A stretch of DNA of 46,618 nt from a virus: the IMG/VR virus record IMGVR_UViG_3300015360_000070, positions 1 through 46,618 of that record. One strand, given 5' to 3'. Positions 26,600-46,618 of this stretch are shown piece by piece (the stretch's first letter is position 1; each line of letters begins with the position of its first letter). Under the pieces are notes generated by a model. It was not told the origin of the DNA. It saw nothing but the letters and a program-made list of their open reading frames with translations, and did not search any database. The position numbers were made by a program, and so were the translations under genes.

Positions 26600-26607
26600 T
26601 CAATAAA

Positions 26608-26647: not shown

Positions 26648-26701
26648 ATTAAGATTAGATAGATAAGAATAGAAGAAGAAGATAAGACAAGAAGAAAATC
26701 A

Positions 26702-27727: not shown

Positions 27728-27730
27728 TAA

Positions 27731-28563: not shown

Positions 28564-30570
28564 ATGACGAGTACACTTAAACACCATGTTCAAAAGCATG
28601 TGGTAACTTCTGGTAACTATGGTTTTGCCAGTGCTGTTGGTAATCCTCCGTTGTTTACCCTTTCAGGTAAACGAGTTATCTATAACGTAGCACCAGGACA
28701 ACCTGTAGCCTACGTGGTTGAAAACGGAGTAACACGAATTGTTTCTGCTGGTGGGTTGGATGCTTCTGAAATATATCAGTTATTTGTCGGCGTAGGTGTT
28801 GATGAAACTGGATCTGGCATAACAACGGCTATTCGACACATTGGTATTGAACACATCTCCGGTTGTTTGCCGCGAGAACTAAGTGCGTCATCTCCACGAT
28901 GCGGTGCACCGCAGATCTTAGATTTCTATTTTGATTGCACTGCTTGCGACGAAACATATTCAGTAGAAGTCACCGTTGACGACAACATGACTCGAAGTTT
29001 CGCACCTTGGAATAAATCGTATCAGCAATTCATTGGGACGATCGTCACCAAATGCAGCTCCTGCGACGACTGTCCAGTTGAGCACAATTGTAGCGAAGTT
29101 GCTTGTAAATTAGCTGACGCTCTAAATGAAAACTTGGATTTTAAAGTAGGCAATAAACTTTATCCAGATTGGAAAGGTTCTGGCGTTCCACGACCTTATT
29201 TTGCAACGCGCTTGCACCCCACTTCTTTAACTTATTGTTTTGCTCCCCAGTCAGAAGCTGAGGGTTGCACTTCATGTACTTATGTCGCCGGAGTAAAAGG
29301 AATTACCATCCGAGACACCCAATATAATTTTACTGGAAATCTTCAACCAGGTAGCACTACTCAAACGTTAACTGCTCAGTTAGCAAGTATTTCCGATCAA
29401 ATAAATGAGTTCTTCAAAACCGAATATGGCGATAAAGCCCATGCGGGATCAAGCTATACAAGTGGTTCTTATAGTGACTGCTGTGCAATTCAATTACACA
29501 TCAACACCGTAGATGCTAACTTCACTTTACGTGACGTACGAGACGGTGAAATAGTTCCAGTTACCTCAAACAACCCGTTCACTGTATATGGTACAGTAAC
29601 TAACGATCCTTCTTGCATCGACTCAACTGACACCGGTTCTGCGGCCAGACAAACCCTGACCCTAACCGACAATCCTGGAAATACCGAAACTGTGACCATT
29701 AATGGAAAGGTTTACACCTTCCAAACTACGCTGACTAACGTCAACGGCAACGTTCTAATTGGAGTTGATGCTTCTGAGAGCCTTACCAATTTGGTGGCTG
29801 CCATCAATTTAGGAACTGGCGCTGGAACCCTATACGCCACTGCAATGACTCTTCATGCTACAGTAAGCGCGACAAACGGTGCTGGAGATACGTTGGTTGC
29901 CACTGCAAAGACCCTTGGAACTGCTGCAAACTCATACGGAACAACTGAAACCTTGGCCACCGGATCTTGGGGTGCTGCAACAATGTTAGGTGGAACTGCG
30001 GCTTCAGAGGCTACTACCACTGACTATACCTGCGGCATTCGTATAATTGCCGAGAGAATAAAAGGAAACTGCGGATGTTATATCAGTGCACCTTTGAACT
30101 TCTATGGTAGAAAGATTACATTAGGTCCAGTCGGAGACGGATGGAAACGTAAACCTTGGTTGGTTGTAGAGGTACAGGCAATGGAGTTACCTGCCGGTTT
30201 TGGATCTTACATCCAGTGGTTAGAATATCAAAACATACCTGGCGGAAAAGGTCGTCAATACAGTCGATCAAACCACCACAGAGGAACATTTAGCTTACCT
30301 GATCCTACTTCAAGAGTAAATGCAGTTACTGCTAGATGCGATACAAACTATTGCTCTTACTATCTGAAATCAGATGTAGATAAACGTAAGGTAGATGGTG
30401 AATTAGGTTTATTGACCATTCATTCAAATGTCCACATTCCTGCTGCTGACGCAACGACCGTTGCTGCATGGGAGGAATTTCAAGCTGCTCTAATTGCTCT
30501 TAACCCAGCATGTAAGATCATAGTTACTGCAACCTGCGATACTGATTTAGGTGTTTGTGAAACCGGATAA
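28564..30570 (+). CDS. Structural protein with inserted phage beta-domain (668 aa)
   Basis: A cysteine-containing, mostly beta protein of unknown family, probably in the virion. Residues about 358-480 form a distinct Thr/Gly/Ala-rich module (TVTINGKVYTF, LTNLVAAINLGTGAG, TAKTLGTAANSYGTTET, then a W-G-x3-LGG end). This repeats a widespread phage tail/head 'ING.xYTF...NLVAAIN' domain. The flanking regions are rich in Cys (for example CSSCDDCP) and more AT-rich, so the module looks like a later insertion. The C-terminal part has FGSYIQWLEYQ and CKIIVTATCDTD. It could be a decoration, collar or tail tube-like protein. Confidence 0.65.
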   Translation: MTSTLKHHVQKHVVTSGNYGFASAVGNPPLFTLSGKRVIYNVAPGQPVAYVVENGVTRIVSAGGLDASEIYQLFVGVGVDETGSGITTAIRHIGIEHISGCLPRELSASSPRCGAPQILDFYFDCTACDETYSVEVTVDDNMTRSFAPWNKSYQQFIGTIVTKCSSCDDCPVEHNCSEVACKLADALNENLDFKVGNKLYPDWKGSGVPRPYFATRLHPTSLTYCFAPQSEAEGCTSCTYVAGVKGITIRDTQYNFTGNLQPGSTTQTLTAQLASISDQINEFFKTEYGDKAHAGSSYTSGSYSDCCAIQLHINTVDANFTLRDVRDGEIVPVTSNNPFTVYGTVTNDPSCIDSTDTGSAARQTLTLTDNPGNTETVTINGKVYTFQTTLTNVNGNVLIGVDASESLTNLVAAINLGTGAGTLYATAMTLHATVSATNGAGDTLVATAKTLGTAANSYGTTETLATGSWGAATMLGGTAASEATTTDYTCGIRIIAERIKGNCGCYISAPLNFYGRKITLGPVGDGWKRKPWLVVEVQAMELPAGFGSYIQWLEYQNIPGGKGRQYSRSNHHRGTFSLPDPTSRVNAVTARCDTNYCSYYLKSDVDKRKVDGELGLLTIHSNVHIPAADATTVAAWEEFQAALIALNPACKIIVTATCDTDLGVCETG

Positions 30571-30621
30571 TCGACGTTCATATTTAACTTTTAATTATTT
30601 TAATTACTCTTAAAAAGACAA

Positions 30622-31071
30622 ATGGCAAAAGTAAAATTTGGACATGGGTATGTATGGACGATTAAAAACGGCAAACGTAAGAACGTCGATTCGTTAAACG
30701 ATGGATTGGAAGATATAGCCAATTGCAGCCCGTGCGGGTGTTCGACCTGTTTCGGTTATACAACTCACTTAAATGCGGAGACTGGCGAAATCGTCATGAA
30801 ATGGATAACCGGAACAGGAACTGAAGAGGATCCTTATGTGGAAAATATTGATGATTATGATGCAGGTTTAATTGCTGTAAAGGCTCTGAAGGTCACAAGA
30901 GACGAACCACCAAGTACGTCTCCAAGTGCCTCAGCAAGCTCTTCAGTAAGCTCGTCTGTGAGTCCAAGTTCTTCTATTAGTGCTTCTATAAGTTCATCGC
31001 CGAGCACCTCTGAGAGTTCATCGGTGAGTTCCTCTATAAGCTCCTCTATAAGCTCCTCGCCGAGCGCATAA
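30622..31071 (+). CDS. Small Cys-containing protein with Ser-repeat tail (149 aa)
   Basis: The N-terminal 95 residues form a small domain with a Cys cluster (CSPCGCSTC). Then from about residue 95 to the end come Ser-rich repeats (SPSASASSSVSSSVSPSSS and similar) ending SPSA. The same SSSx-type arm and SPSA end occur in the protein at 33797, and SPSA also occurs inside the giant protein at 42585. It is a small virion or appendage protein with an extended arm. Confidence 0.7.
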   Translation: MAKVKFGHGYVWTIKNGKRKNVDSLNDGLEDIANCSPCGCSTCFGYTTHLNAETGEIVMKWITGTGTEEDPYVENIDDYDAGLIAVKALKVTRDEPPSTSPSASASSSVSSSVSPSSSISASISSSPSTSESSSVSSSISSSISSSPSA

Positions 31072-31144
31072 TAGAGCTAAAGATCGGATAAGCAGATCAG
31101 ATAAATAACAGTTTGCCGGCTTAAAGGCACATTTGAATACATAA

Positions 31145-31624
31145 ATGGATTGTACGTGCATTAGAGGTATTTATAACTTTTACGTAAGGGCCGTAGATAC
31201 CAAGACTTTAATATACAAGGATGCATCTGACTGGATGGATGAGGACAATTACATACATCCATCAAAGTACACAGTCAAAATGACTGAGCCTGGTAAAGGT
31301 ACGGCTGAAAGTATAGAATTGCTTGTTGGATCCCAAAATGCGATAAGGAAAGAATCTTTAAAAGACGGCATATATTGCTTCGAAACTGATTCTTGTGGCA
31401 AGCACTATAAAAAAAGTGTTGCGATATTCCCTCATTTGGCTTGCTGCGTCAAACAAGCTTGGGCTACTATGGGAATAGATTTTAAATCTCGAATAGAGGA
31501 GGTAGAATCTTATCTAAAAATGGCTCAAATTAACGCCGAGTATAATAACGTAAAGACAGCAACGCAGAATCTAAAAATGGCGGAAAAGCTGTTAAACAAC
31601 ATAAAGTGCGACTGCGATTGCTAA
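31145..31624 (+). CDS. Hypothetical protein (159 aa)
   Basis: Unrecognised. The N-terminal half is beta-like with scattered Cys (DCTCIRGIYNFYVRAVDTKTL). The C-terminal half is a helical region (RIEEVESYLKMAQINAEYN...NLKMAEKLLNNI) ending CDCDC. Located in the Cys-rich tail block. Confidence 0.65.
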   Translation: MDCTCIRGIYNFYVRAVDTKTLIYKDASDWMDEDNYIHPSKYTVKMTEPGKGTAESIELLVGSQNAIRKESLKDGIYCFETDSCGKHYKKSVAIFPHLACCVKQAWATMGIDFKSRIEEVESYLKMAQINAEYNNVKTATQNLKMAEKLLNNIKCDCDC

Positions 31625-31658
31625 AATCATAACATAACACTTAAAAAACACAAAACCA

Positions 31659-32195
31659 TTGTACGTTTATCAAAGTACTAATTTTTGTCACTGTAGAACA
31701 TCAACACCGCCAACGGTTGATCCAGAATGTCCAGATGACTGTAACTGTTTGAAGGTCTGTGATATACGTATAAACGCCAGTGATAGTCGCGCAGTTGGTC
31801 CGTGTGCTAAAAACGGAACATTAAACGTAATGGCCTCAGAATTCGGTCACGACTTCTGTGCTTGCGGTGAAATGACCCCATCTTGGACAGTTCAAAGTAT
31901 TGATACCGAGATCTTCATTACCGCCGCCATAACCAGAGCAGGAATCCTGACCTGGAAAACCCAAGGACCTGAAGCCTTAGACAAGGCCTATGGTGAAATC
32001 ATTTTAAAAGTTTGTTGTGGAGCCTTATCCTACTATGTGCGAGTGCTCATAGGGGTTAAAGATCTATGTAACTGTCCAGACTGTAATGATTGCGAAAACT
32101 GCGATCCATGTACCGGCAATTGCGAAGATGTTGAAATAGATCTGTTTTTCCAAACAGTACCGGTGTCGGGAAATACCTCTCTAAACGCCTCTTAA
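31659..32195 (+). CDS. Cys-rich hypothetical protein (178 aa), TTG start
   Basis: The reading frame starts at TTG 31659; no ATG precedes the Cys-rich N-terminus (NFCHCRTS, then CPDDCNCLKVC). A beta-rich body of the 'IG..L.A' type (TRAGILTWKTQG; YGEIILKVCCGALSYYVRV) and a Cys-rich C-terminus (CNCPDCNDCENCDPCTGNCE) suggest one or two disulfide-rich modules, as in the giant proteins downstream. Unknown family, probable appendage protein. Confidence 0.65.
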   Translation: MYVYQSTNFCHCRTSTPPTVDPECPDDCNCLKVCDIRINASDSRAVGPCAKNGTLNVMASEFGHDFCACGEMTPSWTVQSIDTEIFITAAITRAGILTWKTQGPEALDKAYGEIILKVCCGALSYYVRVLIGVKDLCNCPDCNDCENCDPCTGNCEDVEIDLFFQTVPVSGNTSLNAS

Positions 32196-32215
32196 TTTAC
32201 AATCAAAATCAATAA

Positions 32216-32680
32216 ATGTCAGTACAAGTAGTAAAAAGTGCTTCTGTAAATGGAGATGCCGTTGATTGGATAATAAAACCATGTAATGACTCTACTATTG
32301 AGTGTAAAAACGGTAGGGTAGAATTTACTATTCCATCTGGAATGTCGATGACAGGACCTTCTGACGAGGACAGTACTATTATAAACGTACCTGTTGGTTT
32401 TTATGACCGAGATACTACAACTTGGTATTTTGGAGATTTGGCGGCAAAAACATGCACCCCAACAGCTACCTTCACTTTGACTGTGGACAACACCACTTTG
32501 GCGGATCCAGAAGACCTAAGATTTATTATCATAGCCACGTTCATTACAACCTGCGATGAGACAACAAGCTCAGACAATACAAACACGTTGATTATAAATA
32601 TCGTAGATGATTGTACAAATGTTCAATTGTCAGTTTCAACCACACCAAATCAAAACTCATCAGATATTACTGTGAGTTAA
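32216..32680 (+). CDS. Ig-like/DUF11-like protein (154 aa)
   Basis: The single domain looks like an Ig-like beta sandwich of the DUF11/CARDB type (VEFTIPSGMSMTGP; TFTLTVDNTTLADPEDLRF; NTLIINIVDDCTN). Such domains separate or present other domains in surface proteins. Its sequence pattern (an asymptotic T-G-x-W-x-F-G-D-L step) recurs in the next genes at 32689 and 33797, so it is probably a paralogue. Tail or adhesin component. Confidence 0.65.
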   Translation: MSVQVVKSASVNGDAVDWIIKPCNDSTIECKNGRVEFTIPSGMSMTGPSDEDSTIINVPVGFYDRDTTTWYFGDLAAKTCTPTATFTLTVDNTTLADPEDLRFIIIATFITTCDETTSSDNTNTLIINIVDDCTNVQLSVSTTPNQNSSDITVS

Positions 32681-32688
32681 CAAACTGA

Positions 32689-33447
32689 ATGGCGTTTTCA
32701 AGTATAAAGAACATAGGATTTTTCACCTCAATGGATGTATTTAACATCTATCTTGACGGTATATTGTATCCATCTTTGAGAAACTTGGGCCCTGGTATAG
32801 CTACTGGGGTTGAATTGACGGTAACCATGTCTACTGGGTTGATGTTCAATCCGGGAGCATCCACAGTGCCAAGAGGTACATTTAATGAGGGTACGGGGGT
32901 ATGGTCATTAGGTTCAGTTCTCGCGGGAGAGTCATTAACTCCAGAGTTTTCTTTTAAAATACAGGACGATTGTCCCGGCGAGGAGTTTGTAGTAACATTT
33001 ACAGTTTCATCCAACGCCTGTGATTGTAATTTTGAAAATAACGAATTTGAGATAACAATAGAGGGAACCTCCTGCTGCGAGATTAATAGCTGCATAGACA
33101 ACAACTCGACTTTCACCACATATCTCGCCCAAGGAGCTAATTTAGGCTACACACTATGCTCTGAGCGAAATAAAATTATATTTATAGAGGCAACGGCGGA
33201 CATAACTGTAACCCTCACAGGTCCAACACCAGAGTGTGTAACGGATTCTGTGGTTATAAAACACATAGGTACAGGAGCAAACCGTGTAAATAAGATAAGA
33301 GTTGTTGGAGCTTCCGGAAACGTGGATGGTGATACGTATTTTGAATTTGATAACGTCGGCTCGGCTTTAAACAATTCTCGCGGATATAACCTTTCAAGTT
33401 TTAGATTTAGATACGATGGCACAAATTTCTGGGTTTTCTCTGAATAG
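32689..33447 (+). CDS. DUF11-like protein with a duplicated C-terminal domain (252 aa)
   Basis: Residues 1-130 are a DUF11/CARDB-like Ig domain (GPGIATGVELTVTMSTGL; WSLGSVLAGESLTPEFSF). A Cys-pair hinge (CCEINSC) follows. The C-terminal 85 residues, with VVIKHIGTGANR...IRVVG...YFEFDN...NSRGYNLSSFRFRYDG, recur in the gene at 33797. It probably is a trimeric-fibre or cap-like module. The gene overlaps the next by 32 nt. Confidence 0.7.
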   Translation: MAFSSIKNIGFFTSMDVFNIYLDGILYPSLRNLGPGIATGVELTVTMSTGLMFNPGASTVPRGTFNEGTGVWSLGSVLAGESLTPEFSFKIQDDCPGEEFVVTFTVSSNACDCNFENNEFEITIEGTSCCEINSCIDNNSTFTTYLAQGANLGYTLCSERNKIIFIEATADITVTLTGPTPECVTDSVVIKHIGTGANRVNKIRVVGASGNVDGDTYFEFDNVGSALNNSRGYNLSSFRFRYDGTNFWVFSE

Positions 33448-33784
33448 TAAAAACATACTGATTTCAGTATTCTTTTCAATTACTATATTTTTCTCTGGGT
33501 TAGCGGTGTTAGAAACCATAGCAGATAAATACAGAAATGATCATGGTAATGATTTAAAGTCAACAGCAGGATCAATATCCAGCAAAGAAGTCTCGGAAAA
33601 TAAGATTGCAGTAATCGAAATATTTGAAAAACCAGACGGTGTGTACTTTAAAACCCAATACAATACTAAATACTTTGCAGATAAATGCGAGGTCGAAGCT
33701 TTTATAATTGTAGACTATTATCAACATTGTATGCCCCCAACCACAACAGAGCCCCCAAAGGACTATAAGATAAAGAAATTATAA
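33416..33784 (+). CDS. Membrane-anchored hypothetical protein (122 aa)
   Basis: The start lies inside the end of the previous gene (32-nt overlap). One membrane segment at about 14-32 (ILISVFFSITIFFSGLAVL) is followed by an extra-cytoplasmic-looking soluble domain with two Cys, ending in a Thr/Pro-rich stretch (PPTTTEPPKDYK). This may be a tail-appendage chaperone or an unrelated membrane protein. Unlike its neighbours it is not beta-repeat rich. The overlap makes it the least certain gene of this block. Confidence 0.55.
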   Translation: MAQISGFSLNSKNILISVFFSITIFFSGLAVLETIADKYRNDHGNDLKSTAGSISSKEVSENKIAVIEIFEKPDGVYFKTQYNTKYFADKCEVEAFIIVDYYQHCMPPTTTEPPKDYKIKKL

Positions 33785-33796
33785 CAGAACAACTAA

Positions 33797-35182
33797 ATGG
33801 CAACAGTAACACTTAATTTAGATTTAGGGCTTATAGCCATCGGAGATATTATAGAAATACCGACAGGTACTGTCACCAACGATGGCGTTAGTACGGTTAC
33901 TGGCGTTAAGGTTGTTGTTGAATATCCAGTGGAACTTCAATACGATAGTTCTATCTTAACCACCGGTAATTACAATACAGGTACAGACGAGATAGAGAAC
34001 ATCACACTTTTGCCGGGAGGAACCTTCAGTGGCATAGTGAAATTTGTGGTAGTTGATGACACAGACGCTATTTTCAGGATTACTTTCACAGCTACAACTG
34101 ACGACGCTTGTGAGACCTGCTTGGGAGATAACGTATATTGTGTAGTTACTTCGGGATTAACCTGCACTCAAATAAATTCATGTATTTCTACTCCTCAAAT
34201 CGTCACATACTATTTTTGCGAAAACACTGAGGATAATGTAATTGAAATAGGAGAGGAATACACATGTCCAGGAGATACAGTAAGAACCTTTTCATGGACT
34301 GACACTACGAACTCCTATGGCACACTAACAGGTACTCCAGATGCCGGAACATACACCCCAGATGCTAACTTTGTTGGAGCGGCGTTAGCCTCATACGAAA
34401 TGCTTTGCGACGGTATTCAAGTAGGAACAGGTCAGGTGTTTATAAATGTAAAGGCCGATGGAGCAACTCCCGTAACAACTTATGCTGATCAGGCAACTAA
34501 CTTGGTTATAACTTTAGATGGCACTCACAGGATTCTACATATAGACCCCACCACAGACATAACCGTTACTATAAACGTTGGAGACGACACCTGTGAAACT
34601 GTAACCGAAATAGAGATTAAACACATCGGAACGGGAGATAACAGGTATCCAAATATACGGGTATATAATGGATCTGGAGATGAAGAGGTCGATTTAGATG
34701 ACTATTTTGAGTTTGATAACTCTGGATGGTCTCAAAACAATCCAAGAGGATATAACTTATCTCATTATATATTCTACTATGATGGTGATGATGCGTTATT
34801 TGTAAAATCGGTGTCAACAAATACGCCAATTGATGGGTCGCCCAGCTCATCGGTTAGCCCAAGTTCATCAATTAGCTCATCGTCAAGTTCGTCTGCAAGC
34901 TCTTCTGCAAGCTCTTCAATTAGCTCTTCACCAAGTTCTTCTGCCAGCTCGTCTATTAGCTCTTCGCCAAGTTCATCTGTAAGCCCAAGCTCGTCTATTA
35001 GCTCTTCGCCAAGTTCATCTGTAAGCCCAAGCTCGTCTATTAGCTCTTCACCAAGTTCATCTGTAAGCCCAAGCTCGTCTATTAGCTCTTCACCAAGTTC
35101 ATCTGTAAGCCCAAGCTCGTCTATTAGTTCATCTGCCAGCTCTTCAATTAGCTCTTCAATTAGCTCATCGCCAAGCGCGTAA
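33797..35182 (+). CDS. DUF11-like protein with Ser-repeat arm (461 aa)
   Basis: Domains in order: a DUF11/Ig-like domain (about 1-115), a Cys hinge (CTQINSC), a further beta domain (about 130-230), then the IKHIGTG...YFEFDN...NPRGYNLSHYIFYYDG module shared with the gene at 32689 (about 235-345). Last comes a 110-residue Ser-rich arm ending in SPSA. Part of the arm is four exact-period copies of a 14-residue unit (SSSISSSPSSSVSP), encoded by a 42-bp direct repeat from 34946. It is likely an elongated tail fibre or whisker, with the arm acting as a linker or spacer. Confidence 0.72.
   Translation: MATVTLNLDLGLIAIGDIIEIPTGTVTNDGVSTVTGVKVVVEYPVELQYDSSILTTGNYNTGTDEIENITLLPGGTFSGIVKFVVVDDTDAIFRITFTATTDDACETCLGDNVYCVVTSGLTCTQINSCISTPQIVTYYFCENTEDNVIEIGEEYTCPGDTVRTFSWTDTTNSYGTLTGTPDAGTYTPDANFVGAALASYEMLCDGIQVGTGQVFINVKADGATPVTTYADQATNLVITLDGTHRILHIDPTTDITVTINVGDDTCETVTEIEIKHIGTGDNRYPNIRVYNGSGDEEVDLDDYFEFDNSGWSQNNPRGYNLSHYIFYYDGDDALFVKSVSTNTPIDGSPSSSVSPSSSISSSSSSSASSSASSSISSSPSSSASSSISSSPSSSVSPSSSISSSPSSSVSPSSSISSSPSSSVSPSSSISSSPSSSVSPSSSISSSASSSISSSISSSPSA
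34946..35113. repeat. 42-bp tandem repeat, four units
   Basis: Units begin at AGCTCGTCT 34946, 34988, 35030 and 35072, spaced exactly 42 bp, with a partial fifth from 35114. Units differ by only a few bases, for example TCG versus TCA. The repeat encodes Ser-x arms. It can lengthen or shorten by recombination without breaking the frame. Confidence 0.9.
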
Positions 35183-35220: not shown

Positions 35221-36120
35221 ATGCAAGATCAGTTAGATCATAATAATTGTTGTATTTGTTTTTCAGTTGATCTTGACAGTTTAATATACCAGTCTAAATC
35301 AACGCTGGATGTCCTATCCCAAAAACGAATATACAATAAGACATTGGGGTATTCTTTTTCGTCTGATGGAAATTCAAATCTTGAAACACTTAGATCATAT
35401 CTAAACGTTATCGAGGATGAAAACCTGAATATTGTTCTTGGCGGAAAACCGTGTTTAGACTGTAACAAACTTCAAAGGCTCACTGAAAAAATAAGGTTAT
35501 TATCTGCAAGTTGTGACACATCAAGGCGCAAAGATTTCACTACCGATGATACCAATGTCGAGATATGGATATCTAAAAACCCATACTGCGTATCAAGAGA
35601 ACGATGGGAGGAACTTGCGTACAGAGTATGTCGGAGCCTTAAACTGGAGCTAATCTCCATAGAACAAAAATGCGATATATCTTTCGAGATAATCCGGAAA
35701 TTGATACCCTGTGACATCATGGTATCTATTGCTGTTTTAAAGCAGCAATGTGATTTAGATTTCAAGATAACTCGAACCGAAGAGGAATGTGAAATAGACT
35801 TTGAGATTTTGGCGGAAGAAACAACCTGTGATATAGATCTCAAAACCTACAAGACTCTGATTGATAATAACTGGTCTTACGATATAATAAGAACTGTTTA
35901 CGAAAATGGTTGCACTATAGAACTAAATGACTCGGAAGATTCAGAAGTTGAAATAAACATAGTAACTCCAATAAACAAGTATCCAATTAAAGACTTCAAC
36001 TTTTCGGGTATTCCAGATATGAAGATCTTAAAAGAACTGGATGTTGATTTATCCGATAGCAAATATATAAAAGATCCTACCAACTTTATACAAAAATTAA
36101 AACAGGACTACAGTGGCTGA
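35221..36120 (+). CDS. Hypothetical protein (299 aa) before the giant gene
   Basis: Unrecognised, mostly helical, with many Cys. A repeating pattern of C-D-I/L-D/S-F-x-I elements (KCDISFEII, CDIMVSIAVLKQQCDLDFKITR, ECEIDFEILA, TCDIDLKTY; about 155-225) looks like four short tandem repeats. The last 8 bases overlap the GTG start of the 2117-aa gene. It could be a baseplate, tail-hub or chaperone protein for the giant fibre, by position. Confidence 0.65.
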   Translation: MQDQLDHNNCCICFSVDLDSLIYQSKSTLDVLSQKRIYNKTLGYSFSSDGNSNLETLRSYLNVIEDENLNIVLGGKPCLDCNKLQRLTEKIRLLSASCDTSRRKDFTTDDTNVEIWISKNPYCVSRERWEELAYRVCRSLKLELISIEQKCDISFEIIRKLIPCDIMVSIAVLKQQCDLDFKITRTEEECEIDFEILAEETTCDIDLKTYKTLIDNNWSYDIIRTVYENGCTIELNDSEDSEVEINIVTPINKYPIKDFNFSGIPDMKILKELDVDLSDSKYIKDPTNFIQKLKQDYSG

Positions 36121-39100
36121 CAGCATACGAACATTTACAATAACAATAGGCAAGGTTTACAACGGCGAAGAACTGTGTAAAACCCCAAAAGTAGAATTAG
36201 CCGGCAAGCAGCACATTGCTGTTAACTGTATTGATTTTGAAGGATGTAAATACCAGGTTCAGTTAGGACCTAAAGACATTGAGCCTTGTTTAAAGTTCTT
36301 GGTCACCTGTGAAGAGTGCGGACCCTGCGGGACTGTAATAATTGACAAATGCTTCTGCGACGGTCCAGATGACTGCGACGAGTGCGAAATTTGCGATGCA
36401 GAAGGATTCTGCGAACATCAGTGTCCAGACGGAATCTGTGACAATGGTGTATGTAAAGATTGTGATTTAACCCACCCATGTCCATGCAATCAAATCTGCG
36501 TAAATGGAGAATGTAAATGTCCGGCGGGTAGTATTCTAAATGCTCAAGGATGTTGTGACGACTGTACTAATAATACTGATTGTCCAATATGTTATATTTG
36601 TGATAAACACAACCCTCTATATACAGTTTGTACTTCCATCGAATCTGAAGCTTGTCATTGCGACACTAACGGACGATGTGGTACACCTGGAGCATGTCAA
36701 GAGTGTATAAACAGCGGACATTGTCCGCCAAATGAGATCTGTAATTCTAATTGCGAATGTGACTGTGCACCGGGATTTATCCGTAAAAACGGAATATGCG
36801 TTCCAGCGGAGTGTGAGGAAGATTCAGATTGTGGCATTTGCGAAATTTGCGGACCAAACAATATATGTACACCAAATCAATGTCCAGCTGGCAAGGTTCC
36901 CGCTGTCATAGATGGTGTTTGTTCATGTGTACCTGAGTGTGATTGTGATAACCCAGATTGTAACCGCACATCGTCCTGCGGCGAAACATTTGATAAATGC
37001 GGATGTCTGCCTTGTGGTGGGAACTGTACTGAAGGTTGTGAGGATCCTTGCGTATGTATAGGTAATACCTGTATCGACAACCCCTGCTCAGGGGACTGCA
37101 CTAACGCATTAGGCTGTGCTGGTGATGGTTGTGGATGCTCACCCGACGGTTGCATTTTGTGCGAGGCCCTATCTTGTGATGATTGTGCAACGGCCTTGGG
37201 CTGTAAATGTACAACCGGTAAGTGTCGAAAGGACACTACCTGTGACCTTTCACCATGTTCAGTGTCCTCCGACTGTGGACTCGATTGCACCTGCAACGCC
37301 GGTGAGTGTGTACCCTGCTCTTATTTTTCATGCACAACCAACGATTGCTCAAGTCAAGAGGGTTGTAGTTGTAACGGTGGAAGTTGTGAGGGTGATCATG
37401 ACGAGTGTGCCGATGAAGTCACGTTCGAGAAAGACGATGACAATTGTGAATTAACTGGAAAACTTGTTAAAGACAACTGTTGCCAATGTCCAGCTTTAAC
37501 CTTGGACATTAAAACTACATCAGTCACAGATGTTGACGGAAAAAAGCGTGTTAAATTTACAGCAGAAGTTAGAAAAGGAGCGTACGATGGAGTAAACGTA
37601 GAGGCTTCGCCTTTAGTTGATAATTATGATCATCCTGCTATTGCAGAAAATGAACCTCCAAGTACCGGAACTATACTATTAAGCTATGTAATAAACAATG
37701 ATGTTTATACTATAATCAATGGCGGTGATTATTACAACAACACGTCGTCAACTAACGGACCATCAAGCAGTCAGACATATTCGTCTTCTTCCCCGACTTC
37801 TCAGAAACAGTTTCAAATAGACTTTCCAAAAATAGGAACCCGAACAGTATCGGGTCAACAGGCGTTCGTAGTAAAATCGATTGATGTTACTTTCACCTTG
37901 AGTACTAAGATGACGTTTTCTAACGAATGCGAATATCCGGCGGGTACTCAAATCGGTGTTTTCAAAATAACCAAAAACGAGGAGTTTTTACAAGTACCAA
38001 TAGGCAATACAATAACTTCACCAAATTGTAGAAAACCTCTTTTCAAATATACAAAGTCTACTGATAATTCTTTTGACGAAACACCGTTCAGGAAGCTATA
38101 TATAGATCCGACATCCCCTGGAATTTACGAAGATACTTTCGGCGGATCAGAAGGAGCAGAGTCTTGCCTTAACTATCTATTTGAAACAGATTGTACTTGT
38201 GATGATCCTATATCCAAATATATAGTATTCTGTAACCCGGACGAGATTAAATTCCCAAAACCGGTACTAACAAACTGTGGCAAGGTGGCTGCTATTGAAA
38301 TACAGGCAACCTGTGCAGCAAACGCAGACAAAGACTATGGAATTTATGTAAACGGAAGTTCAGTAGCTACAAGAACTTTCAAATTAAAGGACCCTTTAAC
38401 TGGTTATTCTTTAGCAAGCTTAGTACCAATCACCTCCATATTACTTCACATGAAGTGTGATGTTGTTGGTGAATGTGATATCTTATACACATATCCAGAA
38501 AACGCAGTTGATCCTACTCCTGATGTGACCTGCAATGCGGATGGAACTGTAAGTTTTGTTTTCAAAAGTGCATCTTACAACAGTAATATAAGCTCGGTTA
38601 CATTCGATGGAGTTCTCTCATTGGGAACAGCCGGAGTATTTACATTTATCAAACAACCCAACACTCCTTACGACTACAAGGTTGTTTTTGCAAACGGCTG
38701 CACCTCTGATATAAAAACTATATCTAAGAATGATTGCTGTAACCCACCAACGTTAACCTGTGCCCCAGATGGCAAGTACTTAGTGAGTCCAATCGCCAAT
38801 GTTACATACTATGGAGTGCCTGTTCATTCAAGTGGTATAATAACGCCACCGGCTTTTGCATCATCGCCCTTGACCTATGTTTGTGCCGGAGAAACAATTA
38901 CTATCCAAGTATATCCATACAGGGAGTACGCACCTTGCTGCAACATCGTACTGTCTACATTTGAGATAGACGCGGATGCTAAAACAATTACTGTAGCAAT
39001 AGGAGCAGCCTCAAAATCTGGGAACTATTCAGTTACAGTTGAGAAAACTACGGGTGCTATTTTAGCTTTAGCGACGATGACTAACAATGGGATTTCTCAT

Positions 39101-42100
39101 GTGTTTACAGTAACATCAGATGTTGATGAAGATCTTATAGTGGTGGTTAGGAACACCGCAGACACTGCGTGTTTTACAACGCGGCCTGTATCTTTTGACG
39201 CTAACGGTTGTGATTTGGGTTTGATTCTTGAAATGAACGACGATGCTTGTATTTTAACAGCATCTACAGATGAAAAAACATGTTACTGTCCAATCGGTAA
39301 ATTATCAGGATCGGTATCAGCAGTAACGTCTATATCAAGTACTCAGATCTCAGCGACTTTTGCGGTACTACCAACAATTGAAAATAGTGTGGGATTAGAC
39401 ATAGTGTCTTCAACTTTACAAATCTATGTAAACAACGTACTATCAAGTCCTGATACATCATTATATAGCCTTACGCCAAGTCCAATAACAAAAACAATAA
39501 ATGCTTACTGTGCAAGCCAAACTGCGACAGAAACGTTTACTGTTCAAAAGTTTTTATGCGATGGTGAATGTGGTAACCAAGAGTATCAGATAGATATTAA
39601 TATCGATAACCCATATGTAGTAAGTGGTATAACTATAGGAGGTGCTACATTCACTCCATTAAATCATTTAGAGGGAGAAACTTGGTCTGTTTATTATACA
39701 CCTGGAAGTGGTGCTTCTATGATGAGAATTTCGTTTAGAAACACTGATACTAATTTATCATATTTCAGTGACATTCCTACTCAGACTGCTGGGCCGAGTA
39801 ATTACACGTTTGATATACCTTCATCTAACTGCTATTTGTGTGGCGGAACAATAAAAGGAGCCAATATTAAATTGGTTTACGGTGTTACCTTGGAGGACGG
39901 TTGTATCTACACTGGAGAATTGTCTAAACAAATATGTGTAGGAACAGCCTATACCCTGAGTGAAGTAGCGTTAGTAAATACCAACCCTTCTGGAAAGAAG
40001 ATGCGTTTTGACTTACACCAAGGAAGTACGTTGCTTGAAACCGATTTCAAAAAGAGTCCATCGTCAATAAATTACGGGGCAAGTGATGTCGATTTCAAAG
40101 CGGGTCAACCGTACACGGTTACAGCCTCTTGCGATTGTGAAGAAGAAGCTACAACATCCGAGTGCTTTGATACGGAAATTATCAAATATCAACCATCGGG
40201 ATCTCTATGGGGTTCTAACTGCAATAAAACATACGGAATAACTATCAATTCCTGCTATTACGGAGAAAAGGTTAATGTAAGTTTGGGAGGAGCCAACAAG
40301 GTTGTAACATTAAATTCAAGCGGAGTCGGTAGTACTATATTTACCTTACCAACGTCCTTAACTTCCGCAAACGTAAACATAGCATATTCATATCAGGTTA
40401 ATAATACAGGAACTTGGTGTAGCAATACTATATCGATACCAAACGATTATGCTCCAGGAATTGCCGTGGGGTATAACTGTACAGACGGAGTTAATCAAAT
40501 ATACGATGCAACTATTTCAGTTACGGGTGGAGGTACTGTAGTAATAACAAGCATCCCAGGAGGTGCAGAATATGGAACAATAAACGGAGCAGTATTAGAG
40601 GGTATAACTACCACTAATAACTTTGGGATTACAGTATCAATAAATGGATCTTGTAGTTATCTTGTTAATATATACGCGGCCGATTGTTCATGTAATGTGA
40701 CAGCCGCAACTGTGGCGAATCCTACAATTAACATTTGTGCATTTACAACAAACAATGTAACGACTACCTCCGATCAATCATTGGCGATTACTAATGTAAC
40801 GAGAGCAGACACTGGAAACGATTGGTGGACGGCTTTAGGCACAAATACAATCGGAGGTGGACATTCGGGTTCAACTCTGACCCTCCCAATAACGGGTGCT
40901 CAATTACTAATAGCAGCTCCAAATTCGGTGGTGGCAAACATTGTAAGTTTGAAGATAAGTGATACAAATGGTGGAAATGCTTGCAAAACCATTCCAATTA
41001 CAATTAACAGAACTAACGTACAGTATAGTACAAGTGCAAGCTGTGGTAGTGGGAACTGGAGTATTGCCGTGACTTCTTCAACATCTCCAGGAGTAACTTT
41101 AAGTAACGTTTCATCAGGAACCGTCAGCGGACTGAATATAAACAATATTTCGCGAAGTACGACCTCTGTGACGTTTAGAGTAAAGAAAGGATCTTGTACG
41201 AGTTCACTTATCACAGTAGATATACCAGAGGGTTGTGCGCCATCTTGTGACAACTCAGAAATATCTTTTACAGCTACAGTAATCACCCAACCATGTACTC
41301 TGGCAGGCACACAAGGACTTGTTGAGGTGCAAGCGACTACAACAAACGGTCTCTGTCCACTAACGAGTGCTACCGGAATTGACCAACTCTCAAGTTCTTA
41401 CAATTCGACCACTGGTATTGGATACATTAGATATGCATCAAACACTGCCGGCCTTAAGGAAGTTGCGGTGGCCGCAACAGCGTGCGGGTGTTATCAATCC
41501 ACAAGGGTGGCATTCGCTCAAAATTGCTGTGGTAGCAATTCACAGAGTGTAAGTATAAGTGCATCGCCAGAGGCCTTCTGCACCTCTGAGGGTGGAAATA
41601 TTAATGTGATTGTATTACAAAACTACGATGGATATACCCTGGAAGGCTGGTCACTGAGCACAGGCACATGGCAATCACCTCCAACAGCTGCTGGAGGAAC
41701 TGTTGTCATACCACCAGGAACTTCATCTCCACTAGTGGTATCGGTTGCTGTGAAGGATGCACCAGGAGGAAATATCTGCAATCCAATTTCGGCGGTTGTA
41801 AATCCAACTACTTGCGCTGTAAATCTATGTACCGAAGGTACCGGAGTTGTATGTCCTAACTGTACGGACTGTGACCCCGCTACTGGGAGATGCGGTGTGT
41901 ATACTGATCAAGGACAGCAGGGACCTTGTGATCCCGGATTTGAATGTTGCCTCGGTGCATGCGTAGCTGACTGTGTTGTTCCTGCGGACTCTTATATAGG
42001 GGCTTGTACCTACAGAAACTATTTTTGTACCGCCACAGACTGCGGAACACCTGACTTTCGATCACTGCCTTGTATAACCAGCATTAGCAATTTAATATTC

Positions 42101-42466
42101 AACAACGTCACATGTTATAATATAGGGCCGGGGTATTGTTCGGTATCGGGTTCTGTGACTATAACAAAGAATGCAATCTGTGGACCCTTTGATACGGTAA
42201 ATATTACACCAGGTAGATTTCCCACTAGTAGCACCGCCATCGGGAACGGTCCGAGCGCTGATATAGAAGTAACGGGCGGTAGCATTTCGACTACCACAAT
42301 GACAGTAGACCTTATACTTCATTCCTGTATTGAGGGTGAAGATTTTGGATGTTATGGTTGTGGTCAAACACTAACAGCTTTCTATCATGTGCTTTTACCA
42401 GATTGGGATTGTCCACAACCAATCTCAGTAACCTTTCCTGACTGCGGCGCATGTTCTGATTGCTAA
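36113..42466 (+). CDS. Giant Cys-rich tail adhesin candidate (2117 aa)
   Basis: GTG start overlapping the previous stop. Residues 1-90 are an N-terminal domain shared with the gene at 42585 (IRTFTITIGKVYNG, CLKFLVTCEEC). Residues about 80-460 are EGF/granulin-like cysteine repeats, with about 89 Cys in the first 470 residues, in CxC, CxxC and C(x4-6)C patterns. From about 460 to 1900 there are several beta-rich Ig-like domains, each with a few Cys. The C-terminus returns to Cys-rich repeats (CPNCTDCDPATGRCG) and ends GACSDC. No signal peptide, so it is probably assembled in the virion and not Sec-exported. It is likely a receptor-binding fibre; disulfides would form outside the reducing cytoplasm. 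Confidence 0.7.
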   Translation: MADSIRTFTITIGKVYNGEELCKTPKVELAGKQHIAVNCIDFEGCKYQVQLGPKDIEPCLKFLVTCEECGPCGTVIIDKCFCDGPDDCDECEICDAEGFCEHQCPDGICDNGVCKDCDLTHPCPCNQICVNGECKCPAGSILNAQGCCDDCTNNTDCPICYICDKHNPLYTVCTSIESEACHCDTNGRCGTPGACQECINSGHCPPNEICNSNCECDCAPGFIRKNGICVPAECEEDSDCGICEICGPNNICTPNQCPAGKVPAVIDGVCSCVPECDCDNPDCNRTSSCGETFDKCGCLPCGGNCTEGCEDPCVCIGNTCIDNPCSGDCTNALGCAGDGCGCSPDGCILCEALSCDDCATALGCKCTTGKCRKDTTCDLSPCSVSSDCGLDCTCNAGECVPCSYFSCTTNDCSSQEGCSCNGGSCEGDHDECADEVTFEKDDDNCELTGKLVKDNCCQCPALTLDIKTTSVTDVDGKKRVKFTAEVRKGAYDGVNVEASPLVDNYDHPAIAENEPPSTGTILLSYVINNDVYTIINGGDYYNNTSSTNGPSSSQTYSSSSPTSQKQFQIDFPKIGTRTVSGQQAFVVKSIDVTFTLSTKMTFSNECEYPAGTQIGVFKITKNEEFLQVPIGNTITSPNCRKPLFKYTKSTDNSFDETPFRKLYIDPTSPGIYEDTFGGSEGAESCLNYLFETDCTCDDPISKYIVFCNPDEIKFPKPVLTNCGKVAAIEIQATCAANADKDYGIYVNGSSVATRTFKLKDPLTGYSLASLVPITSILLHMKCDVVGECDILYTYPENAVDPTPDVTCNADGTVSFVFKSASYNSNISSVTFDGVLSLGTAGVFTFIKQPNTPYDYKVVFANGCTSDIKTISKNDCCNPPTLTCAPDGKYLVSPIANVTYYGVPVHSSGIITPPAFASSPLTYVCAGETITIQVYPYREYAPCCNIVLSTFEIDADAKTITVAIGAASKSGNYSVTVEKTTGAILALATMTNNGISHVFTVTSDVDEDLIVVVRNTADTACFTTRPVSFDANGCDLGLILEMNDDACILTASTDEKTCYCPIGKLSGSVSAVTSISSTQISATFAVLPTIENSVGLDIVSSTLQIYVNNVLSSPDTSLYSLTPSPITKTINAYCASQTATETFTVQKFLCDGECGNQEYQIDINIDNPYVVSGITIGGATFTPLNHLEGETWSVYYTPGSGASMMRISFRNTDTNLSYFSDIPTQTAGPSNYTFDIPSSNCYLCGGTIKGANIKLVYGVTLEDGCIYTGELSKQICVGTAYTLSEVALVNTNPSGKKMRFDLHQGSTLLETDFKKSPSSINYGASDVDFKAGQPYTVTASCDCEEEATTSECFDTEIIKYQPSGSLWGSNCNKTYGITINSCYYGEKVNVSLGGANKVVTLNSSGVGSTIFTLPTSLTSANVNIAYSYQVNNTGTWCSNTISIPNDYAPGIAVGYNCTDGVNQIYDATISVTGGGTVVITSIPGGAEYGTINGAVLEGITTTNNFGITVSINGSCSYLVNIYAADCSCNVTAATVANPTINICAFTTNNVTTTSDQSLAITNVTRADTGNDWWTALGTNTIGGGHSGSTLTLPITGAQLLIAAPNSVVANIVSLKISDTNGGNACKTIPITINRTNVQYSTSASCGSGNWSIAVTSSTSPGVTLSNVSSGTVSGLNINNISRSTTSVTFRVKKGSCTSSLITVDIPEGCAPSCDNSEISFTATVITQPCTLAGTQGLVEVQATTTNGLCPLTSATGIDQLSSSYNSTTGIGYIRYASNTAGLKEVAVAATACGCYQSTRVAFAQNCCGSNSQSVSISASPEAFCTSEGGNINVIVLQNYDGYTLEGWSLSTGTWQSPPTAAGGTVVIPPGTSSPLVVSVAVKDAPGGNICNPISAVVNPTTCAVNLCTEGTGVVCPNCTDCDPATGRCGVYTDQGQQGPCDPGFECCLGACVADCVVPADSYIGACTYRNYFCTATDCGTPDFRSLPCITSISNLIFNNVTCYNIGPGYCSVSGSVTITKNAICGPFDTVNITPGRFPTSSTAIGNGPSADIEVTGGSISTTTMTVDLILHSCIEGEDFGCYGCGQTLTAFYHVLLPDWDCPQPISVTFPDCGACSDC
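37249..37326. repeat. 78-bp perfect repeat, copy 1
   Basis: Seventy-eight bases within the Cys-rich region are identical to 43436-43513 in the paralogue downstream. The surrounding sequence of the two genes is clearly diverged. This indicates recent exchange or a conserved recombination segment. Confidence 0.93.
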
Positions 42467-42476
42467 AATTAAATGA

Positions 42477-42572
42477 TATTCTTTTGAATATAATAATTGC
42501 TTTTCCTCATCAGGGGCAACCAACGTGGTACAAAATTGCATAGACAACAACTGTGATCCATGTGGAGCTTAA
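42477..42572 (+). pseudogene. Orphan C-terminal coding remnant
   Basis: After the stop of the giant gene, a frame with no start codon of its own, open from 42477 to TAA 42570-42572, reads like the end of a Cys-rich tail protein (YNNCFSSSGATN, then NCIDNNCDPCGA). The NCIDNN motif resembles the INSCIDNN hinge of the protein at 32689. A GTG-started 15-codon version is possible. It probably is a leftover C-terminus from a deleted or exchanged gene. Confidence 0.5.
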
Positions 42573-42584
42573 TAACAAAAATGC

Positions 42585-45500
42585 GTGTCGGAGTTAATCA
42601 GAACATTTATAGTAAAGGTTGGAAAGGTTTACAATGGGAAGCTTGAATGTAGACATCCTTTTGTAAACCTGCTTGACCACACTGGAGTTGTAAATTGTAT
42701 TGATAGAAAAAACGGAGTATATAAGGTTCAGATATTAGACGACGTAGATGAAATTACTACTTGTTTAAAGTTTTTAGTAAAGTGTGAAGATTCTGGATGT
42801 GATAACTGTTCTCAAGTAATAGAAAAGTGTTTTTGTGATCCAATAAATGGTTGTCCTTCGGGCGAATATTGTGATTCCAATGGATTTTGTTCTTCAATAT
42901 TTGAGTCTATAAGTTCTAATACCAATGACTCAGTAACTCCTTGTGATGATGCTCATTTATGTCCCGGAAATAAAGAGTGTATTGGTAATAAATGTACATG
43001 CCCTAAAGGAACATTCGAGCACGGAGACTTCTGTTCTGAATGTTTAAAACCAGAAGACTGTGGTATCTGTGAGGATTGTATTTCTGCCGGCAAGTACTCT
43101 GTATGTAAACAGAAAGATTGCAATTGTAATAATAAAAACGGAGAGTGCGTAGACTGTACAAACTCTGGACATTGTCTACCAACTGAGGTCTGTAATTCTT
43201 ATTATGAATGCGAATGTGCTCCTGGATATATTCTAATAAACGGAATATGTACTGATATAGAGTGCGAGAATGACCACGAGTGCAAGGACTGCGAGATCTG
43301 TGGAATAAATAACAAATGTATTCCCATCCAATGTCCATCTGGTAAAGTTGCGACTATAATAGACGGGGTGTGCGCGTGTGCATCCGAACCTGACTCTTCT
43401 CCATCTCCTGAAGACCCAGACAACCCATGTGAATCTTCACCATGTTCAGTGTCCTCCGACTGTGGACTCGATTGCACCTGCAACGCCGGTGAGTGTGTAC
43501 CCTGCTCTTATTTCGCGGAGGATGAGGAGGACTGCAACACTCGTGTCGGATGTGCGTACTCAAATGGAAACTGTGATCCTGTAGAAAAGGAGTGTAGTTC
43601 TGAACTTATAATATCTACCGAGGGCTGTAACATAATAGGTGAACTAACAACCGAAGATTGCTGCCAATGTCCAATTCTATCTATAGAAGCTAAGGTACTT
43701 AAGACCAAGAACATAGGTCAAAACAAAGAACTGACCTTTGCCGTAGAACTTAGAAAGGGCAAGGGCGGTCCCTTATTAGACAACACCGCCCACCCAGACA
43801 TTGCTTTAAACGATACCCCAATTTCTGGCTATATTAAAATGTCATATCAGATCGTGTATGATGTTTTTGACGGAACACAATATATAGGTACATCAAAGTC
43901 CGCCGAGGTAGTAAAGACATCAAGTTTCCCAGGAGACATAGCAACTTTAAACTTTACATCAGTTTTCCCATCAATTGGGTACGTATCTGAGAACAAGGTC
44001 GTAAATTCAATATTAGTAAATTTTAGCTTAAGTACAGACCTTACTTTTGAAAATCAGTGCGTTTATCACCCTTCAGAAGTACCAACCATAGTTATAACAG
44101 ACTATAGCAAAATAGATACAAAGAGCACTGAAATTTCCTCAACCTCCTGCCGGATTCCACTTTTTAAATGGACTAAGAATAATAAGCTATTTAGGAAGAT
44201 ATATAACAATCCAGATAGCTTTTATAAACTTACAGACGGAGCAGAGTCGTGCTATGAGTACACCTTAGATTCAGACTGCAACTGTGGAGATAATCCTGTA
44301 ACGCAGTATATCGTATTTTGTAATCCTTCAGATTTTGATTATGAGATAACTGATTGCGCCAGAAAAGTAAGCATTTCAGTTCCAGAAGGATGTGACGCAA
44401 ACAAAGATAAAAACTATCAGTTTTTAATAAATGGATCGGTAGTAAGTACATTCAAGCTACCATACACTCACAGTTTTACAAGTGAGGCCCAAATCAGTAC
44501 CATAACCTTAAGACTGGTTTGTGATCCCGTATGTGATATTACATACATCATAGAGCATGTTCAGGAAAACGGTGATCCAACTTTAGTATGTACAAACGTA
44601 TTAACTGCCACGTGGGACAGTTCTGATTTCAGTTCGGCCATAGAAACCGCAGAGTACGGAACAAACGGAGTTTATAGCACTGTAATTACGCCAACCAACG
44701 GACTTATAACTCTGATTTTAGAACCTGGTGTGGTATATAACTATAGGCTTACCCTTGAAAATACGTGTGTAATTACAGGCACTTTTTCTGAAATTTGCCA
44801 TTATGGGGCTGAACCTGATGTCGAGTGCAACGAATACGGGATGTTCGTTATTTCCAATCTGAAGGATTACGGAACATATCTTCTCGGCGGAGAAGAGATC
44901 TTCGGACCTACCTATGTTTTTCAAAACAATGTATTAAAGGCACTCACCTATCAAGTTGGTTCATTTTCTGGTGTATTGAGTATACCCGCTTATTCAGAAT
45001 CTGAGTGTTGTAATATAGTTTACTCCTATGAGATAAATGAACTTATATTAACAATTACGGTTCATTCAGCTTCTTTATATCCAGTTACAGTCAGTGTGCA
45101 AAATCAGCCCATTCAACTCATACAAGAATCTGGCGGAGAGGCTGTCTTTGAATTAGAAGGTTCGTATTCTGTAGAGCTAATATCAAAAGAATTCTGTAGT
45201 AAGGAGTTCAGTGTCGATACAAGTCTCTGCGATTTAGACTTAGAACTAATAGCCAGTGAGACTAATTGCAGATATATAGTTAACAGCAATGCCAAGGACT
45301 GTACCTGTAAATCTGCTTACATAAATATAGATGTAACTTCTATTGTAGTAGGGGCTATCAGTATAGTAGCTCAGTTAGATATAATAGTAAACATATCAGA
45401 TTATAATCCGGAGAATACATTTTCGGGTACTATAGTGTTCAATTCACCATACGGCGCATCTACCGTAATTCCAGTGAGTGCAATCAATGAGGTCTTTACG

Positions 45501-46618
45501 TCGGGGCTTACTATACCTCTAAACTGCTTTGCCGGTCTTTGTAATGACTGCAGTAGTGGTATATTTGAGTTAACCGTAAATCTGATAGATGGCTGTATGT
45601 ACATGGAAGAACTTCCATTTACTTTCTGCAAGGACGGATCGCATACGGATTTCGCCGGAATACGCCTCATGGGCAGTGGTCCCCGTAAAATCGAGTTTCA
45701 ATGGTATGTAAATAATGAGCTGCTTAAAACCGAGTACTCATCTGGAATAGGGCCCACATCGTATTTCGACGACCCTTTAATTCCCGGAGCAACATATAAG
45801 ACAATAGTCAATTGCGATTGTAGTGAGGAGATAGAAACAGGAGAATGTCTAACTTCTTATATTACAAATATATTTGTAGATGAAGACGGACTGGCTGTGA
45901 GCTTTGACTTTGAGACCTGCTATGTTGAAGAAGAAGTTACATTTACATTAAAGGACTGCAACGGAGACACTGTTGATATCTTTGTAGGGACCAATGTAAC
46001 GGAACACACTTTTGTGTTGAGTGATCCTATTTGTGAACATGCCGGCGAGTTATTATATGGAATCGGAGCTTGCGTGGGGTCTACGCTGTTTGAAACTCCC
46101 GGTTTTGGTTATTCAGAGAGCTCTTCAATTAGCTCTTCGATTAGCTCCTCTGTAAGTTCGTCTGTGAGTCCAAGCTCATCACCGAGCTCATCACCGAGCT
46201 CTTCGCCGAGTTCTTCGTATAGTCCGAGCTCATCACCGAGCTCTTCGCCGAGTTCTTCGTATAGTCCGAGCTCATCACCGAGCTCTTCGCCGAGTGCTGG
46301 TTATTCAGAGAGCTCGTCAGTGAGCTCTTCATTGAGTTCATCACCGAGTTCTTCAGTGAGTCCAAGTTCTTCAAGGAGCTCATCACCGAGTTCTTCGTAT
46401 AGTCCGAGCTCATCAAGGAGCTCATCACCGAGTTCTTCGTATAGTCCGAGCTCATCAAGGAGCTCATCACCGAGTTCTTCACGGAGCTCATCTGTGAGTC
46501 CAAGCTCATCACCGAGCTCTTCACGGAGCTCATCTGTGAGTCCAAGCTCATCACCGAGCTCTTCACGGAGCTCATCTGTGAGTCCAAGCTCATCACCGAG
46601 CTCTTCACGGAGCTCATC
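42585..46618 (+). CDS. Second giant Cys-rich paralogue with Ser-repeat arm, truncated by the window end
   Basis: Frame open from GTG 42585 (SELIRTFIVKVGKVYNG) to the window edge, at least 1344 codons with no stop seen. It parallels the gene at 36113: the same N-terminal domain (CLKFLVKCEDSGC), EGF/granulin-like Cys repeats (about 85-330), then beta domains (for example FCNP, CQCPILSIEAKV and FKWTKNN segments aligned with FCNP, CQCPALTLDIKT and FKYTKST in copy one). From about residue 1175 it continues into a Ser-rich arm with SSSPSSSYSP and SSSRSSSVSP units. It lacks most of the middle Ig domains of its neighbour. Likely a second tail fibre or an allele-like variant. Confidence 0.72.
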   Translation, partial: MSELIRTFIVKVGKVYNGKLECRHPFVNLLDHTGVVNCIDRKNGVYKVQILDDVDEITTCLKFLVKCEDSGCDNCSQVIEKCFCDPINGCPSGEYCDSNGFCSSIFESISSNTNDSVTPCDDAHLCPGNKECIGNKCTCPKGTFEHGDFCSECLKPEDCGICEDCISAGKYSVCKQKDCNCNNKNGECVDCTNSGHCLPTEVCNSYYECECAPGYILINGICTDIECENDHECKDCEICGINNKCIPIQCPSGKVATIIDGVCACASEPDSSPSPEDPDNPCESSPCSVSSDCGLDCTCNAGECVPCSYFAEDEEDCNTRVGCAYSNGNCDPVEKECSSELIISTEGCNIIGELTTEDCCQCPILSIEAKVLKTKNIGQNKELTFAVELRKGKGGPLLDNTAHPDIALNDTPISGYIKMSYQIVYDVFDGTQYIGTSKSAEVVKTSSFPGDIATLNFTSVFPSIGYVSENKVVNSILVNFSLSTDLTFENQCVYHPSEVPTIVITDYSKIDTKSTEISSTSCRIPLFKWTKNNKLFRKIYNNPDSFYKLTDGAESCYEYTLDSDCNCGDNPVTQYIVFCNPSDFDYEITDCARKVSISVPEGCDANKDKNYQFLINGSVVSTFKLPYTHSFTSEAQISTITLRLVCDPVCDITYIIEHVQENGDPTLVCTNVLTATWDSSDFSSAIETAEYGTNGVYSTVITPTNGLITLILEPGVVYNYRLTLENTCVITGTFSEICHYGAEPDVECNEYGMFVISNLKDYGTYLLGGEEIFGPTYVFQNNVLKALTYQVGSFSGVLSIPAYSESECCNIVYSYEINELILTITVHSASLYPVTVSVQNQPIQLIQESGGEAVFELEGSYSVELISKEFCSKEFSVDTSLCDLDLELIASETNCRYIVNSNAKDCTCKSAYINIDVTSIVVGAISIVAQLDIIVNISDYNPENTFSGTIVFNSPYGASTVIPVSAINEVFTSGLTIPLNCFAGLCNDCSSGIFELTVNLIDGCMYMEELPFTFCKDGSHTDFAGIRLMGSGPRKIEFQWYVNNELLKTEYSSGIGPTSYFDDPLIPGATYKTIVNCDCSEEIETGECLTSYITNIFVDEDGLAVSFDFETCYVEEEVTFTLKDCNGDTVDIFVGTNVTEHTFVLSDPICEHAGELLYGIGACVGSTLFETPGFGYSESSSISSSISSSVSSSVSPSSSPSSSPSSSPSSSYSPSSSPSSSPSSSYSPSSSPSSSPSAGYSESSSVSSSLSSSPSSSVSPSSSRSSSPSSSYSPSSSRSSSPSSSYSPSSSRSSSPSSSRSSSVSPSSSPSSSRSSSVSPSSSPSSSRSSSVSPSSSPSSSRSS
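43436..43513. repeat. 78-bp perfect repeat, copy 2
   Basis: Identical over all 78 bases to 37249-37326. It encodes the same Cys-rich segment (SPCSVSSDCGLDCTC and onward) in the same frame of both giant genes. Confidence 0.93.
46119..46618. repeat. Ser-rich coding repeat, 12- and 42-bp periodicity
   Basis: The DNA follows a 12-bp rhythm of AGY-TCN-TCN plus one variable codon (Ile, Val, Pro, Arg or Leu, or the pair Tyr-Ser). It is organised in 42-bp units, for example AGCTCATCACCGAGCTCTTC-type units near 46230 and 46500-46618. It continues past the window end. The reverse strand is also open because of this codon pattern, but that is not evidence for a gene. Confidence 0.9.

Follow-up and report, generated by a model that had tools for sequence, protein, structure and literature searches.

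Two giant cysteine-rich proteins, here called A and B, are encoded side by side at the end of a crAss-like phage sequence and are probably long appendages of its virion (tail fibres most likely, head fibres next), with a docking N-terminus, a disulfide stalk and variable tips. The sequence analysed, referred to as the window, spans 46,618 bases and is a linear record in IMG/VR. A preliminary description of this DNA had reported a 2117-aa protein followed by an open-ended second gene, and this gene structure was confirmed. The reading frame of B is still open at the contig end, and the protein is truncated because the contig terminates inside a perfect 42-nt tandem repeat encoding Ser/Pro-rich sequence; a scan of other viral contigs for the missing 3′ end of B found none. 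The two genes, their parts and the block to which they belong are as follows.

28564..35182, plus strand: rest of the surface-protein block, with a 668-aa protein (23 Cys), DUF11 proteins and a Ser-repeat protein
31659-32195, plus strand: protein of 178 aa, 18 Cys (10%); among the small genes of the block, the one with the highest Cys density
35221..36120, plus strand: 299-aa protein with 14 Cys; its stop overlaps the GTG start of A
36113..42466, plus strand: protein A, 2117 aa, 168 Cys, GTG start
36113..36367, plus strand: N-terminal domain of A, residues 1-85, six predicted strands
36350..37492, plus strand: Cys-dense region of A, residues 80-460, with diverged C..D.DC-type repeats
37249..37326, plus strand: 78-nt identical segment, A copy, an exact match to the B copy
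42585..46618, plus strand: protein B, at least 1344 aa, 87 Cys, GTG start, 3′ end missing
42585..42839, plus strand: N-terminal domain of B, residues 1-85
42822..43670, plus strand: Cys-dense region of B, residues 80-362
43436..43513, plus strand: 78-nt identical segment, B copy, an exact match to the A copy
46104..46618, plus strand: Ser/Pro-rich tandem repeats of B with 12-, 30- and 42-nt periods, within which the assembly stops

The phage lineage and the gene neighbourhood

Upstream of A and B, crassviral PHROG matches together with tblastn identified TerL (phrog_6681), the portal (phrog_6547) and the MCP (phrog_11589) in the canonical order of the Crassvirales. A tblastn search with TerL found Crassvirales, the best match being phi14:2 (27%). 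In the portal tree the window, its 133.8-kb relative IMGVR_UViG_3300045684_000009 (hereafter G001) and the records L013 and L014 form one clade with full support; in this quick tree, in which branches are long, the clade sits on a long branch away from phi14:2, and the portal clustering with phi14:2 expected of a member of the Steigviridae was not found. A 4.2-kb contig from another sample (IMGVR_UViG_3300020057_000397) has a portal identical to that of the window over the common part and is for this reason regarded as the same virus assembled twice. A close-relative scan with full-length A found nothing, nor did tblastn searches of INPHARED with A and B, and scans of genome contigs with the Cys profile and TerL revealed no bacterial source or host.

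The genome of G001 encodes a single homologue of A and B (1686 aa, L008:5530-10590, profile E 8e-24), which occupies the equivalent genomic place. Ahead of it lies a homologue of the 299-aa gene (34% identity), and after it come a gene for another protein containing Cys, an M43-type protease gene, an amidase gene and the tail genes. The 299-aa protein is possibly an adaptor or chaperone and would be a conserved partner. Neither the profile of the N-terminal/Cys part nor that of the upstream 299-aa gene matched any of 50 other crAss-like records, many of which are fragments, and the non-Cys parts of A and B had no homologue outside G001; the function proposed for A and B therefore rests on position and analogy.

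Cysteine content in the window is 0-1.2% in the head genes (18065-28477) and 1.6-10% in the genes from 28564 on, and the switch coincides with the head-to-appendage boundary (28477/28564). The Cys trait is thus one of the surface block of this lineage and extends beyond the two giant genes. The 178-aa protein of this block has a 75-residue stretch of similarity to a protein of the L013 record. Another large Cys-rich protein, of 959 aa with 87 Cys, is encoded by G001 (L005:15916-18795); its Cys pattern is different, and the repeat motifs counted in A are all absent from it.

Other features of the window were recorded during the analysis.

1116-3122, plus strand: B12-dependent (class II) ribonucleotide reductase, with a G001 counterpart (25% identity)
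5770-7218, minus strand: subtilase (S8) that also has a fibronectin type III domain, a combination unusual in a phage gene
13669-13742, plus strand: second tRNA match (Rfam, 46.7 bits), not called by ARAGORN
14203-14274, plus strand: tRNA-Cys (gca), found by ARAGORN and Rfam
15229-17100, plus strand: reprolysin-like (M12) metallopeptidase with an F5/8-type C domain and a hydrophobic N-terminus

The occurrence of a tRNA-Cys alongside the 255 Cys codons of A and B is suggestive; the Cys-rich G001 instead has tRNA-Met and tRNA-Gln.

Paralogy and local sequence exchange between A and B

On sequence comparison A and B are paralogues, in agreement with the earlier description of two giant adjacent proteins with a common N-terminal domain. 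They aligned by blastp over 1115 columns with 30% identity (E 6e-117), with a second match at A residues 1258-1395. In 100-residue blocks, identity starts at 49% at the N-terminus, lies at 31-80% across the Cys region and at 34-42% for residues 400-800, and is then 20-46% to about residue 1350 (~30-35% overall). The description had also held that the middle and end modules differ, which is correct for the ends; the homology reaches through the middle to about residue 1350 of A, and divergence is confined to the distal parts. Protein A consists, in order, of the N-terminal beta domain, the Cys-dense region, a beta-rich middle and extra distal beta-type domains, with a small Cys-rich segment in the distal part at about residues 1905-1955. 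The distal modules of the two proteins are unrelated, with the extra beta-type domains found in A and Ser/Pro repeats in B. With A-B identity high over the first 800 residues, the layout is that of fibre-type proteins, a conserved N-terminal part and a variable distal part. A DUF11 protein (33797-35182, plus strand) ends, as the assembled part of B does, in Ser/Pro repeats; these are similar and have the same 12-, 30- and 42-nt periods, and the two proteins are otherwise unrelated.

The identity of the 78-nt segment indicates recent recombination or gene conversion between the A and B copies; the third codon base is common to 25 of the 26 identical residues inside the stretch as against 186 of 403 elsewhere. 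Tandem duplication probably gave rise to A and B, with short segments still being swapped between them. A diversity-generating retroelement was considered and rejected, as the 78-nt repeat is exact, lies within both genes and is not a template/variable pair; no reverse transcriptase was found in the subset of window ORFs scanned. In one frame the gap between the two genes (42467-42584) can be translated as SSSGATNVVQNCIDNNCDPCGA followed by two stops; it weakly resembles pieces of the N-terminal domain (E 0.24) and is possibly a decayed copy.

Cysteine-rich repeats and similar ones elsewhere

There are 89 Cys in residues 1-460 of A and 54 in residues 1-362 of B. Of the 50 ungapped Cys columns of the Cys region, 38 are invariant across A, B and the G001 protein, and among the 179 remaining columns this holds for 27 (odds ratio 17.8, p 8e-16); Cys is therefore conserved above other residues in all three proteins, as is characteristic of disulfide-rich repeats. 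Averaged over ORFs no shorter than 200 aa, Cys content is 3.4% for the window, 2.0% for G001 and 1.5% for the L013 record; for nine further crAss-like phages or fragments the value is 0.4-0.9%.

The repeats had been described as EGF/granulin-like, a designation that is not supported as no EGF-clan or granulin Pfam profile matched A or B. The nearest Pfam-type profiles (EB module, DUF7107 and Dickkopf_N) were all below cut-off, and no profile gives A or B a name. The nearest repeat is TIGR04201, which passes its curated cut-off in the G001 homologue (25.4-32.8 bits, varying with the stretch and tool used) and has no match above the 25-bit cut-off in A (13.8 bits) or B (no hit). The motif C..D.DC.....C occurs three times in the Cys region of A (shuffled mean 0.21) and five times in that of G001 (0.13). 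Based on these comparisons, the repeats of A and B are diverged versions of the TIGR04201 type. The TIGR04201 model derives from the repeats of TraA, a myxobacterial receptor, and the authors propose that these repeats form a rigid stalk (PMC3325183); the term 'eukaryote-like' used previously was therefore imprecise. The likeness to Myxococcus TraA lies in the repeat type, as found in the G001 homologue, and in the arrangement of tandem Cys repeats as a proposed stalk presenting a binding domain, whereas the signal peptide, PA14 domain and MYXO-CTERM anchor of TraA were not found in A or B. A search of all viral contigs with a strict repeat pattern gave no match, and as the pattern is very strict this says little. 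PDB sequence matches to 4hp1 and 1oig were rejected as matches of Cys composition.

Searches by tblastn with the G001 protein, and then with the repeat matched, revealed similar repeats in the phages S-SCSM2R and P-SS2 and in the archaeal virus ANMV-1. The P-SS2 protein, gp084 (2612 aa, 282 Cys), was detected in purified virions by mass spectrometry with 43 peptides (Table 2 of PMC2784084). Like A and B it is giant, is encoded in the structural block and contains many C..D.DC and C....C..C..C repeats, in a cyanophage that is otherwise unrelated; unlike them it ends in coiled-coil-like sequence, and no common N-terminal or distal domains were found. The similarity is weak and does not extend beyond the Cys repeats (E 0.003 for A and 0.002 for B), and was matched by three of 100 Cys-fixed shuffles for B and by none for A or G001, so that the resemblance is best read as one of working alike and not necessarily of common descent. 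The ANMV-1 protein (L157:4696-8196, 1166 aa, 166 Cys) has the Cys repeat over nearly its full length and is without known role in an unrelated virus; it also weakly matches TraA (E 2.6e-6), far below cut-off. In the likewise unrelated Synechococcus phage S-SCSM2R there are three repeats only, inserted in a gp5-like baseplate hub protein. Against TIGR04201, with its cut-off of 25 bits, ANMV-1 scored 24.2 and S-SCSM2R 24.1. The preliminary claim that this Cys density is rare in a phage is correct when the window is compared with the nine crAss-like phages, but it is not unique, given P-SS2 gp084 and the ANMV-1 protein. Giant Cys-repeat viral proteins are thus rare in phages and not unprecedented, and gp084 is a virion-proven precedent of similar design.

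AlphaFold2 gave a poor model of residues 1-799 of A from a three-sequence alignment (pLDDT 46), while the N-terminal 100 residues alone were modelled as an all-beta domain (pLDDT 70, pTM 0.55). A fold search with this domain found no PDB match at E<=1e-3, the best being Ig-like but unreliable. No trimerisation or coiled-coil segment was identified in A or B, and by a simple hydrophobicity check the N-termini of A, B and the G001 homologue do not resemble signal peptides.

Proposed role of A and B and the alternatives

A tail or appendage role had been suggested previously and is well supported by the location of the genes in the structural block, the synteny with G001, the MS-detected block of phi14:2 and the presence of P-SS2 gp084 in virions. 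The g080-g088 block of phi14:2, a Cellulophaga phage, is in the same position after the MCP and encodes structural proteins detected by MS, including the pectate lyase g086; the phage differs in being almost Cys-free (0.4% mean) and in having no homologue of A or B. In crAss001 virions disulfides are present and the fibres are docked by short N-termini (PMC10172136). The tail and head fibres of this phage (gp22, gp21 and gp29) are likewise crassviral appendages with N-terminal docking segments, but no sequence similarity to A or B was detected, and the disulfides described link barrel, hub and auxiliary proteins and are not in Cys-repeat stalks (PMC10172136). Together with the Cys conservation, these known disulfides make the label 'disulfide-style', applied earlier to A and B, plausible.

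The N-terminal beta domain common to A and B is a candidate virion-docking domain, which would attach the proteins to the particle. The Cys-dense region would form a compact stalk, built of small repeats that disulfides hold together, and the beta-type middle and distal domains would reach the host surface and bind a receptor there. As the tips of A and B differ, they could read different surfaces; the suggestion that they are alternative receptor-binding fibres fits the conserved N-terminal part and divergent distal ends seen in the sequences. Since no signal peptide was seen, A and B would be made in the cytoplasm and oxidised late, with disulfides forming once the particle leaves the reducing cytoplasm. 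No gene of the Erv1/ALR or DsbA families was found in the window or G001, and hence no phage-encoded route to disulfides. The reducing thioredoxin encoded by G001 was rejected as evidence for disulfide formation.

It is unlikely, although worth considering, that A and B are instead head fibres or capsid decoration that bind surfaces, mucus or cells for residence and not for infection. Their genes come just after the head block, the nearby DUF11 and SprB-like domains are of adhesion type, and the head fibres of crAss001 are of two kinds, one of which bears an Ig-like C-terminal domain (PMC10172136); however, the crAss001 head fibres are small (PMC10172136) and the pectate lyase in the phi14:2 block is typical of a tail spike. 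A role for the Cys clusters in binding metal (Zn or Fe-S) in the cytoplasm, which would make A and B metal-stabilised structural proteins or intracellular factors, is quite improbable. Synthesis in a reducing cytoplasm without a signal peptide, the 16 CxxC pairs in A 1-460, the weak PDB match to the CXXC-type protein 4hp1 (E 0.005) and the lack of a phage Erv1 or DsbA are all compatible with metal binding, but the repeat type (TIGR04201, EB, DUF7107, Dickkopf_N) belongs to extracellular disulfide-rich proteins, His is scarce in the Cys region, and gp084 of P-SS2, which bears such repeats, is a virion protein. There is little to recommend the view that A and B are non-virion adhesins, either released or carried on the surface of the infected host: many bacterial surface proteins have SprB-like and DUF11 domains and the G001 neighbour genes include a metalloprotease, but A, B and the G001 homologue all lack a signal peptide, and A and B lie within the structural block, where the start of A overlaps the preceding gene. 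An assembly or binning artefact, with A and B derived from another organism or from wrongly joined strain variants, is barely credible even though the contig ends in a tandem repeat and two sequences could conceivably have been joined at the 78-nt stretch, as the independent contig of G001 has a syntenic homologue, A and B are too diverged for strain variants and no bacterial genome match was found.

With virion appendages as the preferred reading, a broader proposal can be made tentatively, as Cys enrichment covers most of the block from 28564 on and not the head core. It is that this crAss-like lineage has a wholly disulfide-armoured virion surface, with stalk repeats as in myxobacterial receptors and ocean phages, paralogous fibres between which gene conversion swaps parts of the stalk, and disulfide proteins made in the cytoplasm that mature after lysis. 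If A and B are such appendages, the question is how and when more than 80 stalk cysteines are correctly oxidised after synthesis in a reducing cytoplasm.

The usual folds of phage adhesins are beta-helices, coiled coils or Ig-like domains. A dense Cys-repeat stalk, in a crAss-like phage and in the virion protein of an unrelated cyanophage, would represent a separate route to long, protease-resistant fibres. It also suggests a likely role for proteins like P-SS2 gp084, listed as an 'unknown structural protein' since 2009.
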